NCBI GenBank assembly: GCA_000317655.1
Contig: CP003940.1
Coordinates: 558,001-622,000 of the forward strand
Direction of reading: 5' to 3'
DNA: 64,000 bases
From: Cyanobacterium stanieri PCC 7202
Lineage (GTDB): Bacteria > Cyanobacteriota > Cyanobacteriia > Cyanobacteriales > Cyanobacteriaceae
Under the pieces are notes generated by a model that saw only the letters and a program-made list of their open reading frames with translations, was not told the origin of the DNA and did no database searches. Both the position numbers and the translations under genes were made by a program. Below, piece by piece: positions 15,336 to 23,407 of the stretch (positions are counted from its first letter, which is position 1; each line of letters opens with the position of its first letter).

Positions 15336-16698
15336 TAATTCTATGGGTGGTCGTGACCTACAATCTACTGGATTCGCTTGGTGGTCTGGTAATGCTAGAC
15401 TTATCAACCTATCTGGGAAGTTGTTAGGTGCTCACGTTGCCCATGCTGGTCTAATCGTATTTTGGGCCGGTGCAATGACTTTATTTGAAACCGCTCACTT
15501 CATTCCTGAAAAGCCAATGTATGAGCAAGGTTTAATCCTTCTTCCTCACATTGCGACTTTGGGATGGGGTGTCGGTCCTGGTGGTGAAATCACCGACACA
15601 TTTCCTTTCTTCGTAGCTGGTGTATTACACATCATTTCCTCTGCCGTATTAGGCTTAGGTGGACTTTACCACGCTTTACGTGGTCCTGAAACTTTGGAAG
15701 AATATTCCAGTTTCTTTGGCTATGACTGGAAAGATAAAAACCAAATGACCAACATCATTGGTTATCACTTGATCCTTTTAGGTTTGGGTGCTTTCTTACT
15801 GGTATTTAAAGCCATGTTCTTTGGTGGTGTATATGATACCTGGGCTCCTGGTGGTGGAGATGTCCGTATTATCACTAACCCAACCCTAAACCCTGCAACC
15901 ATTTTTGGTTACTTGGTTAAAGCTCCTTTCGGTGGAGAGGGTTGGATCATTAGTGTGAACAACATGGAAGACATCATCGGTGGTCATATCTGGGTAGGTT
16001 TCATTTGTATCAGTGGCGGTATTTGGCATATCCTAACCAAGCCTTTTGGTTGGGCTCGTCGTGCGCTCATCTGGTCTGGTGAAGCATATCTTTCTTACAG
16101 CTTAGGTGCTTTATCCTTCATGGGATTCATCGCCTCTGTAATGGTATGGTACAACAACACTGCTTATCCTAGTGAATTCTATGGTCCTACTGGTGCAGAA
16201 GCATCTCAGGCTCAAGCATTAACTTATTTAATCCGTGACCAACGCTTAGGTGCTAACGTAGGTTCTGCTCAAGGTCCTACTGGTCTTGGTAAATACTTGA
16301 TGCGCTCTCCCACTGGTGAAATCATCTTCGGTGGTGAAACCATGCGTTTCTGGGATTTCCGTGGTCCTTGGTTAGAGCCTCTTCGTGGTCCTAATGGTTT
16401 GGACTTGGATAAAGTCAGAAATGATATTCAACCTTGGCAGGTACGTCGTGCGGCTGAATACATGACCCACGCACCTTTAGGTTCCTTAAACTCTGTTGGT
16501 GGTGTAATCACTGACGTTAACTCTTTTAACTATGTATCTCCCCGTGCATGGTTGGCTACTTCTCACTTTGTATTAGGTTTCTTCTTCTTGGTAGGTCACT
16601 TGTGGCATGCAGGCCGCGCCCGTGCTGCTGCTGGTGGTTTCGAGAAGGGTATCGATCGTGAGACTGAACCTACTTTATTCATGCCTGACCTCGACTAA
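15319..16698 (+). CDS. psbC: Photosystem II CP43 chlorophyll protein
   Basis: 459 residues from GTG 15319. I chose this start because GAGGAGGT (15303-15310) sits 8 nt upstream and because psbC classically starts at GTG within psbD; the overlap is 17 bp. The longer ORF from ATG 15292 would add nine residues out of family. Six transmembrane helices with antenna-chlorophyll His residues are visible, and the large lumenal loop contains GPTGPEASQAQ-like residues ([13 protein letters not shown]) and the [18 protein letters not shown] segment that touches the Mn4Ca cluster. CP43 is the inner antenna of photosystem II. Confidence 0.97.
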
Positions 16699-21035: not shown

Positions 21036-21258
21036 CACCTAATATTTACAGATCGAATGTGATTGAATATTATACCCTAGGGGCGTTCAAAATTCATAAT
21101 TGACCATGGACAATAAGCAATTATTTCCTTTTTTCCCCTTACCCCTTGCCTTTTACCTCCACTGAGTCATCAACCCAATTTTAATACTGATTTCCCCACG
21201 TTCAAATTTGAATTGATTGTATAGAATTGGAAGTAGTTTAGATTTTCTATATGTCATC

Positions 21259-21957
21259 ATGAATAACAATAATAACTCGGCAGTTATCAATGACGAGGTG
21301 CAAAAATTGGACGATCGCACCATAACTGCTTGGCTCAGAGGGCTATTAACCGTAGCCTATGCTGACGGACATTTTGATCCCGAAGAGCAAGAACTGATCG
21401 CCAGTTTAACTCAGGATGAATTGATGCCTAATACCACATTAGGAGAATTAGAACCCATTTGCCCCGAAGATTTAGCCACGGAATTAGGGGATGATGTGGA
21501 AGTCAGAGAAAATTTTTTACGTACTGCGGTGATGATGGCGATCGCCAATGGGGTATATTCCCAAGCCGAAGCCGATTCTGTCCATAGTTTTCAACAAGCC
21601 TTAGAGTTAGATATAGAAGCCCTCAAAGCCCTAGAAGCCACCCTCTGGAATCCTGAGCAAGGGCAAAAATCAGTTTCTCAGGGTAAAGAAGAAAGTGCGA
21701 TCGATGTCTTAAATCCCGTCAAAAAATGGCTCGATGGTATGGATGTACAAGATCCCAGAGTGGCCCGTTTCTTGTGTAAAATGATTCCCCCCCAATGCCC
21801 CTTTGAAAGAGACATCAAATTATTTGGCAAAAAAATTGTCCATATTCCCCCCATGTGTAAATTAAACCCCCTCTATGAACAATTAGTAGGTCTAAGGTTT
21901 CGCTCCCTTTCCTACCTTGCTGATGAATGTGACGAGGACATTTCCGCCTATATTTAA
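21259..21957 (+). CDS. TerB-like / Mo-dependent nitrogenase C-terminal-like protein
   Basis: 232 residues from ATG 21259; an upstream in-frame ATG at 21217 would add 14 unlikely residues. The N-terminal half looks like a TerB helical bundle (WLRGLLTVAYADGHFDPEEQELI, MMAIANGVYSQAEADSVHSF). The C-terminal 70 residues (DPRVARFLCKMIPPQCPFERDI, IPPMCKLNPLYEQLVGLRFRSLSYL) match the Mo-nitro_C family, which despite its name occurs in non-diazotrophic cyanobacteria. Three Cys residues fall in this part. The function is unknown. It is followed by the structured RNA candidate. Confidence 0.7.
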   Translation: MNNNNNSAVINDEVQKLDDRTITAWLRGLLTVAYADGHFDPEEQELIASLTQDELMPNTTLGELEPICPEDLATELGDDVEVRENFLRTAVMMAIANGVYSQAEADSVHSFQQALELDIEALKALEATLWNPEQGQKSVSQGKEESAIDVLNPVKKWLDGMDVQDPRVARFLCKMIPPQCPFERDIKLFGKKIVHIPPMCKLNPLYEQLVGLRFRSLSYLADECDEDISAYI

Positions 21958-22020
21958 CTGAAAAAGGCAAGAGATAATCACAATTCCTCCTCGTTTTCAC
22001 AAAAAAATGTTATGCTAGAT

Positions 22021-22165
22021 ACAGTACCGTCGGGCGGACGGGAATTTAACGCTTGAGGAGTAGGTCGTAAAGCCTAGACATGAACACGTAAGACTCGTGA
22101 GTAGCGTAAGTGAAAGGAGCTAGTTCAGCCCAAGAATCCTTCACCTATGGTGATTGGAACGTCAC
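22021..22165 (+). ncRNA. Candidate structured RNA, HEARO/omega-RNA-like, without a nuclease gene
   Basis: This block is more GC-rich than typical gaps here and contains several short hairpins: CCGTC-gggcg-GACGG (22027-22041), TAGGT-cgtaaa-GCCTA (22061-22076), ACTC-gt-GAGT (22093-22102) and TCACC-tat-GGTGA (22141-22153). It has GTAG/GTAA-rich internal loops and an AAGAATCC element just before the last hairpin. GAATCC plus a terminal hairpin is typical of the right ends and guide-RNA scaffolds of IS200/IS605-type elements, and the overall look recalls HEARO RNAs of cyanobacteria. No IscB or TnpB ORF is adjacent. TATGCTAGAT just upstream (22013-22022) could be a -10. The identity is inference from memory of the families. 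Confidence 0.4.
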
Positions 22166-22184
22166 TCGATTTTATATCAAAAAA

Positions 22185-22206
22185 AAGGGCTGGTTTTCCA
22201 GCCCTT
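22185..22206 (-). terminator. Rho-independent terminator after the arsA-like gene
   Basis: AAGGGCTGG-TTTT-CCAGCCCTT is a 9 bp perfect stem. On the minus strand it is followed by a run of eight T's, and it lies 20 bp after the stop of the ArsA-like gene. The plus strand has no T-run, so it is a poorer end for the RNA candidate. Confidence 0.85.
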
Positions 22207-22225
22207 AAAAAATGTCTATTTTTAT

Positions 22226-23407
22226 CTAAGAAGGAGTAGAAAACTTAATTTTTAGATAATCCTCTTCAATTTTTGCCCCAGAAGGTTGTAATGCCGCCAA
22301 GGCTTGGGGTAATACCAAGTTACGGCGATGGTTGCCGATTCTGACATTCAACTCATCCCCTGTCTTATTCAGTTTTATTTGTTCTTTGGGAATACCGGGT
22401 AAATATAACTCTAAACTGTAATGAGAATCCTCTTGGATAACCCTAATGGTATTTTCGGCATAATATACCTGACTAGGATCTTCATCCTTGTATAAAGTAT
22501 CTTTCAAACGTTCCAAGGCTTCTAAACCACACATTTCCTCAGAATATAAAGGAACTTCCTTTACGGGGAGAGGGTGGAAGTTATCATAAATTTCTTGTTT
22601 ATACACTGATTGATTTTCTTTCCATTTTTGGAAAAAGGGATCATCTACCTGATCAGGGATAATTCTATTCGCTATTACTAAATCGGTAGATACATTATAA
22701 AGACTCAGATAAGCATGGGCTCTCAAAGACTCTTTGATGACCATTCTTTCAGGATTAGTTACCAAACGCACAGAGGTTTGAGTATTATCGGTTAATACCT
22801 TTTCTAGGGCTTCAATTTGTTGATAAAATTCATAGGGTGCATCCATTACCTCATTAGTGGGCAGGGAAAACCCTGTGATGGGTTTAAAGAAAGGCTCAAA
22901 TAAAGGGCGTAGGGTGGCAGACATACTTTGGAGAGGTTTATAAAACCTTCTCATATACCATCCCCCCACTTCGGGAAGACTCAATAATCTTAGGGCTGTG
23001 CCAGTGGGTGCAGAGTCGATAATTAAAACATCAAATTCGCCTTCGTCATAATGACGCTTCATTCTTACTAAACCAAAAATCTCATCCATACCGGGTAAGA
23101 TGGCTAATTCTTCGGCCTGTACACCATCCAAACCTCTAGCTTGTAATACTTCGGTGATGTATTTTTTCACCGCTCCCCAGTTGCCTTCTAGTTCCATGAG
23201 AGCGTCTAATTCTGCACCCCAGAGGTTTTCTTTGACTTTGCGGGGTTCATGACCTAATTCTAAATCAAAACTGTCGGCTAGGGAATGGGCAGGGTCGGTA
23301 CTTAAGACTAAGGTTTTATGTCCTAATTCAGCGCACCTTAAACCCGTGGCGGCTGCTACGGAGGTTTTACCTACTCCGCCTTTTCCTGTCATTAAGATTA
23401 CTCGCAT
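22226..23407 (-). CDS. ArsA/Get3-family ATPase with C-terminal HSP20-like domain
   Basis: A protein of 393 residues. The P-loop GKGGVGKTS (about 8-16), the switch segments [12 protein letters not shown] and [15 protein letters not shown], and [12 protein letters not shown] identify the ArsA/Get3 deviant Walker ATPase family. The last 80 residues ([36 protein letters not shown]) form a small alpha-crystallin-like beta domain known as ArsA_HSP20. There is no arsenite pump gene nearby, and a role in membrane-protein targeting or metal handling is open. It is a single gene with its own terminator. Confidence 0.85.

Follow-up and report, generated by a model that had tools for sequence, protein, structure and literature searches.

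The guide RNAs of TnpB are usually regarded as parts of their own transposons. Stand-alone omegaRNAs that act in trans with IscB are reportedly present in Ktedonobacter. The TnpB reRNA is roughly 150 nt long, with a guide of about 16 nt (PMC8612924). Also described are PATEs, the palindrome-associated transposase-free derivatives of IS605-type elements in Haloquadratum (PMC3119063), and TldR proteins, which are nuclease-dead TnpB repressors whose guides need just a 6-nt seed (PMC13418256). Below, we describe a locus that is very probably a stand-alone RNA gene of the TnpB type under selection; no report of its RNA family was found among open-licence papers. The locus lies in a window of 64 000 nt (positions 558001–622000) of a cyanobacterial genome, G000, which is a single contig of 3.16 Mb. 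Positions of features are given within that window.

Position and anatomy of the RNA gene

A first-pass annotation had marked a multi-hairpin block at 22013–22175; on our reading of the sequence, the RNA gene reaches further in the 3′ direction, to about 22206. The block was rightly placed between two ordinary genes. Upstream is the gene for a TerB/Mo-dependent nitrogenase C-terminus protein, named by domain family and called TerB-like here (21217–21957, + strand); downstream, and convergent with the RNA gene, is an ArsA-type ATPase gene (22226–23407, – strand). The window also holds, at 15727–15913 on the – strand, the antisense RNA IsrR (RF01419, 190.9 bits), which is a regulator of isiA; this hit and the named relatives point to the cyanobacterial phylum.

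All elements of the RNA gene are on the + strand. The predicted promoter is an extended –10 element, TGTTATGCT (22008–22016, with TATGCT at 22011–22016), which reads TGTTATCTT in the congeneric genomes G001 and G004. Of 55 related loci, some of which are nearly identical to each other, 21 have a TANNNT motif 7–9 nt upstream of the scaffold; no other spacing tested accounts for more than four. The scaffold itself, TACCGTCGGG...GGAACGTCA, occupies 22025–22164 and is the single match in the whole window to R1, a covariance model built from eight stand-alone sequences; the block is one of the eight, and its score of 153.7 bits (E = 2.5e-46) thus includes itself.

The scaffold has a 5′ hairpin, CCGTC-GGGCG-GACGG (22027–22041), in which four of the five pairs show compensatory changes, and a closing helix (22052–22134) formed by CTTG.GG from 22052 and CC-CAAG ending at 22134, for which the compensatory variants are CTTGAGGAG/CCCAAG and CCTGAGAAG/TCCAGG. 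An inner hairpin is formed around TAGG(TCGTAAAG)CCTA (22060–22077), and a long-range helix pairs TGAAC (22081–22085) with GTTCA (22123–22127), replaced by ATCACC/GGTGA in relatives. The terminal hairpin, TCC-TTCACC-TAT-GGTGAT-TGGA (22137–22157), stands 3′ of AAGAA and has CATC/GATG in G001 and G004. Both motifs picked out in the first pass are present, AAGAATCC before the terminal hairpin (22132–22139) and TAGGTCGTAA in the hairpin/loop region (22061–22070). The right end of the block is TCAC, not TCAA, and G000 has no left-end palindrome. After TCA there is a segment of guide length, CTCGATTTTATATCAAAAAA (20 nt, 22165–22184), which may be used as a guide. It is followed by a terminator hairpin, AAGGGCTGG-TTTT-CCAGCCCTT (22185–22206, the hairpin being at 22187–22204), with GGGCTAG/CTAGCCC in G001 and G004. 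The T-run of this terminator in G000 is weak on the + strand and strong on the – strand, so that it is probably shared with the convergent gene.

The folding energy of the single sequence is no better than that of shuffles (z = +0.56 for the + strand and +0.16 for the – strand), and the term ‘multi-hairpin’ is therefore not significant when drawn from one sequence alone; it is upheld, however, by covariation across 19 related loci. RNAalifold, applied to these 19 immobile loci (class A, see below), gave five helices with 96.6% of cells paired. Compensatory changes are carried by 14 of 23 pairs, and 78 cells are changed on both sides, compared with 25.4 in shuffles. The covariation score of 0.507 exceeds the 0.216 of shuffles and the values obtained with partners slid, which do not rise above 0.074. 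Because the structure was derived from the same 19-sequence alignment, the slid control is biased in its favour; the double-sided changes carry more weight. The structure of the block is real.

A promoter, a structured RNA and a terminator make up a typical sRNA gene, and the RNA might be a protein-independent sRNA in which the scaffold is transposon-derived and the unpaired AU-rich 3′ segment, or the loops, pair to mRNAs. We consider this unlikely. The TnpB-type helices and invariant residues are kept across lineages, whereas a protein-free sRNA should have lost them.

A TnpB-type scaffold

The first-pass annotation had described the block as HEARO/omega-RNA-like. What stands of this is a solitary guide-RNA scaffold of the OMEGA kind; the attribution to HEARO and IscB does not. 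The Infernal search that it proposed finds no Rfam family in the block, and no HEARO (RF02033) even at E-values up to 10, while the same library detects a genuine HEARO at a control locus, L256, with 140.6 bits. Within a few hundred bases of that HEARO (2429–2674, – strand, genome G204) there happens to be an immobile RNA of the TnpB type. A HEARO would be expected upstream of iscB, and the genes that flank the block are the TerB-like and ArsA genes.

Kinship in sequence leads to the 3′ ends of tnpB genes. R1 matches the reRNAs of tnpBs in G111, G225, G383 and G377 (29.7–38.1 bits, best E = 4.5e-10) and three tnpB-linked reRNAs of G000 (L009, L010 and L018; 32.1 bits, E = 3.4e-8), and DNA homologous to the block in other cyanobacteria (L069, L070, L073 and L074) is the 3′ end of tnpB. 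The 3′ ends of tnpB at 38 loci of G000 share the plan of the block; that of L009 consists of a 5′ hairpin, ACGCTTGGGGAG, CCAAGAATCC, a hairpin and GTGTCAA, after which comes flanking DNA. In the block itself, the frame from 22026 reads TVGRTGI and then a stop, which is the C-terminus of an IS605-type TnpB. Since R1 and this 5′ TVGRTGI tie it to tnpB 3′ ends, the block is, as judged from sequence, a TnpB-type (IS200/IS605) reRNA/omegaRNA scaffold and not HEARO. The original proposal of a HEARO/IscB omegaRNA served by a distant IscB is scarcely credible: it has in its favour the general resemblance among OMEGA RNAs and nothing more, whereas RF02033 fails to match where the control scores highly, which refutes membership of that family, and the kinship just described points to tnpB.

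The block has a scaffold homologous to the tnpB 3′ end, or right end, as an ordinary TnpB reRNA does, but it does not overlap a tnpB 3′ end in cis, and its TCAC and conserved segment take the place of the TCAA and copy-specific guide that are found in the mobile relatives. None of the 38 TNB-domain TnpB loci found by searching G000 falls inside the window. The first-pass statements that no TnpB is in the window and that the scaffold is solitary, with no nuclease gene nearby, are therefore borne out; a nuclease acting in trans is kept as a possibility, and the genome-encoded TnpB to be looked for exists in the form of those 38 loci elsewhere. The TnpB load of G000 is heavy, with several families present in near-identical copies that have differing flanks; G001 and G004 have 5 and 7 TnpB matches, respectively, compared with its 38.

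Conservation at the locus

An orthologous RNA gene follows the same gene in three congeneric genomes (G000, G001 and G004), and, among the family genomes compared, the order of TerB-like gene and RNA gene is seen only in these three. The scaffolds of these genomes are identical at 129–135 of 139 positions (93–97%), whereas the fourfold-degenerate sites of the two neighbouring genes are 53–73% identical. The guide segment is identical at 18–19 of 20 positions (90–95%), which is somewhat less forceful for a segment that is AT-rich. Where the congeners differ in the terminal hairpin or the terminator stem, pairing is preserved by compensatory changes; the promoter position and the terminator are likewise kept. 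Homology with the window stops at the terminator; the 3′ neighbour is the ArsA gene in G000 and a UvrB gene in G001 and G004, and this difference points to a rearrangement breakpoint just past the terminator (22185–22226).

Comparison of the same gap in related genomes, as advised in the first pass, gave a divided result: the RNA gene is fixed in the three congeners and absent in nine other family genomes, including G003, the nine being those in which the TerB-like gene is present and sufficient DNA follows it, unlike in G010, where the contig stops short. The gap in G003 (L212) contains GGCGGAGAGTGTCAA, which looks like the remnant of a TnpB right end. The block is single-copy in G000, where a DNA similarity search found no further copies, and it has no match in the plasmid collection. 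Mobile behaviour, to which the first pass had drawn attention, is seen in relatives and not in the block itself.

It had also been suggested that the block is a relic of an excised element. A mini-element that is slowly decaying, and is now without function save perhaps as a terminator, would account for the missing left-end palindrome in G000, for TCAC in place of TCAA, and for CTTGT-TTAT-ACAAG in G004, which may be what remains of a left end and is degraded in G000. Such a relic is quite improbable, and indeed already disfavoured, given a scaffold so much better conserved than the neighbouring fourfold sites and the compensatory nature of the changes in hairpin and terminator. An excised relic is equally hard to reconcile with the retention of scaffold, guide segment, promoter position and terminator in three species.

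Mobile and immobile relatives

Matches to R1 are spread throughout the cyanobacteria, and 250 of the 391 genomes of the order contain one or more. The DNA fetched for the first 37 strong matches contains no tnpB, as judged with a profile that detects tnpB in control loci. Many of the matches are mobile relatives (class B), protein-free mini-elements of about 205–410 bp, with TTAT before the element, TCAA at its right end and a flank (the guide) that is different for every copy. G266 has eight copies of about 205 bp; nearly all follow TTAT, have a palindrome close by and end in TCAA, with two of the eight departing from this pattern. G501 has three copies of about 410 bp each, with differing flanks. 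The combination expected of a PATE-like mini-element, namely several copies, a palindromic left end and different flanks, is found in G266 and G501 and not in the block.

In the immobile relatives (class A), TCA is followed by C in place of A, the –10 element keeps a constant distance from the scaffold, and no left end could be found. The genomes listed have a single strong match each, often with a terminator 12–22 nt downstream; in several, this is the distance that separates scaffold from terminator. Their sites are near a rhodanese gene (genus g16), near atpC (f5) and near other genes, all named from reading translations. The segment past CTCA is variable in g16. At some loci (L244 and L248), the 4 kb of fetched DNA also contains a tnpB, which does not overlap the RNA, and L260, tabulated with class A, is an ordinary tnpB-linked reRNA. 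Class A, the block included, is made up of immobile stand-alone reRNA genes. A tree was built from 139 alignment columns of 76 scaffolds, and many of its forks are unresolved. Class A occupies three separate positions in it, namely a clade of 17 with good support (99/97), g195, and the genus of the window; the last of these joins the TCAA-type copy from Pleurocapsales LEGE 06147 (support 80/88). The best tree would imply three changes to class A, a single origin of all immobile copies also being admissible.

Two further occurrences may be mentioned. At L178 (3925–4062, – strand, G389), a stand-alone omegaRNA lies in a tRNA gene array, and its 3′ segment past TCA resembles antisense tRNA. In another order, a 2.7-Mb genome (L283, G126) has seven copies of a 95-nt match to the TnpB-type scaffold, with a second right-end-like hairpin after it. 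Stand-alone copies also occur in Pseudanabaena phage Pam2 (L229 3987–4116, – strand, 95.1 bits) and in two IMG/VR contigs of 298 kb (L242 6963–7113, – strand, 74.1 bits) and 208 kb (L243 72–209, – strand, 96.2 bits). The copy in the 208-kb contig is probably a mini-element insertion, because its left end is the same as that of the multi-copy elements of G266. This host mini-element left end weakens the case for phage-encoded guide RNAs as a separate class.

Candidate partners and targets

There are two intact TnpBs in G001 and six in G004, and TnpBs of one type, that of L022, occur in all three species. The D-E-D residues are kept in every TNB-domain protein of more than 300 aa examined in G000, G001 and G004, and a nuclease-dead partner of the TldR type is not evident. 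R1 recognises no scaffold beside any TnpB of G001 or G004. In G711, a class A RNA is present and a TNB-domain TnpB is not detected, a persistence that would suit the protein-independent sRNA considered above; this copy differs at two near-invariant positions, which would fit loss of constraint in what is one case.

Near matches to the guide segment, with mismatches allowed, show no excess over a reversed control in three genomes, although this search would miss a 6-nt seed of the TldR kind. Among the matches read, a TTAT-like motif stands beside them at chance level only, and no good match is flanked by TTAT. The best match in motif context is an orthologous site, AATTAG-CTCGATTTTATCTC, in G000 and G004, and is itself at chance level.

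These results bear on whether the RNA is a decoy or brake, with a scaffold that binds TnpBs and blocks the loading of their own reRNA, or cutting, and a segment after TCA that is a mere linker. Such an RNA would presumably resemble phage RNA anti-CRISPRs. The failure to find targets in three genomes is in keeping with it, as are the weak conservation of the segment after TCA in g16, the stand-alone copies in three phage sequences and the richness in TnpB of genomes with such RNAs (15–150 in most). We nevertheless regard a decoy as rather unlikely. The guide segment is conserved in the genus of the window, the phage copies may be plain mini-element insertions, as the left end of L243 indicates, and a decoy should resemble the scaffold of a resident reRNA, to which there is no close match in G001 or G004.

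Proposed origin and mode of action

The history of the block would begin with a protein-free IS200/IS605-type mini-element, carrying an reRNA, that inserted after the TerB-like gene in an ancestor of the three congeneric species. The left end would then have been lost and the right end changed from TCAA to TCAC, so fixing the element in place. We infer this course of events from the sequence relations and conservation observed; an origin from a mini-element is suggested by the TTAT- and TCAA-bounded relatives and by the grouping of the block with the TCAA-type copy of LEGE 06147. From its own promoter, the predicted signals would yield a natural single-guide RNA of ~160–180 nt, comprising scaffold, a guide of 20 nt or less, and terminator. 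This RNA may bind a TnpB-family protein encoded elsewhere and direct it to DNA in trans; the conserved segment CTCGATTTT would be the seed.

A TnpB-family partner in trans is most likely, being the most economical reading of a sequence in which the scaffold helices are kept. Whether the RNA acts as a guide in trans is, in our view, about evenly balanced, and an even chance also attaches to the whole proposal, that of a TnpB-type guide RNA gene which stands alone, came from a mini-element and acts with TnpB in trans. Arguing for a guide gene are the homology of the scaffold to tnpB 3′ ends, the compensatory pairs, the conservation at one locus in three species, what appears to be a dedicated promoter at fixed spacing in related stand-alone loci, a gap between scaffold and terminator that in several immobile relatives is close to TnpB guide length, and intact D-E-D TnpBs in all three genomes. 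Arguing against it are the lack of an evident cognate nuclease in G001 and G004, whose TnpBs have no scaffold that R1 recognises, the related RNA of G711 without a detected TnpB, the absence, in the three genomes, of an excess of near matches to the guide segment and, among the matches read, of a good one flanked by TTAT, and the variable segment past CTCA in g16, which would be odd if the target of the guide were conserved.

Comparison with known systems

The locus suggests that what was retained as a gene is the RNA and not the nuclease, and that such guide RNAs can persist as host genes. If so, immobile stand-alone reRNA genes would be a second route of domestication, parallel to TldR, in which the RNA takes the place of the nuclease, and one could test whether hosts exploit or restrain the TnpBs that they harbour. 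More tentatively, and with a little less than even confidence, cyanobacteria may repeatedly have made the guide RNAs of mini-elements into fixed host genes that program or restrain TnpBs in trans, which would bring the many TnpBs of a genome under host RNA control. There would, in addition, be a structured RNA family missing from Rfam, and guide-RNA-carrying mini-elements that reach large cyanophages.

The omegaRNAs that are said to stand alone in Ktedonobacter would likewise be OMEGA RNA genes with no nuclease in cis, but of the IscB/HEARO type, whereas the block is of the TnpB type. TldR guide RNAs (PMC13418256) would be matched in their mode of action by a TnpB-type guide RNA that had been domesticated and had a short conserved guide; the block, however, has no tldR beside it, and in G000, G001 and G004 every intact TnpB examined has D-E-D. 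The relatives in G266 and G501 are like PATEs (PMC3119063) in being short and protein-free, with a palindromic left end and variable flanks; the window copy, in contrast, is single and without a left end, and its family carries a conserved structured RNA of the guide type. Unlike the TnpB reRNAs of IS200/IS605 elements such as ISDra2 (PMC8612924), the block overlaps no tnpB, has what are predicted to be its own promoter and terminator, ends in TCAC instead of TCAA and has a guide segment that is conserved in place. It shares with them the sequence and helices of the scaffold, the AAGAATCC hairpin before the right end, and the overall plan of a scaffold, here of about 140 nt, with about 16–20 nt of further 3′ sequence.
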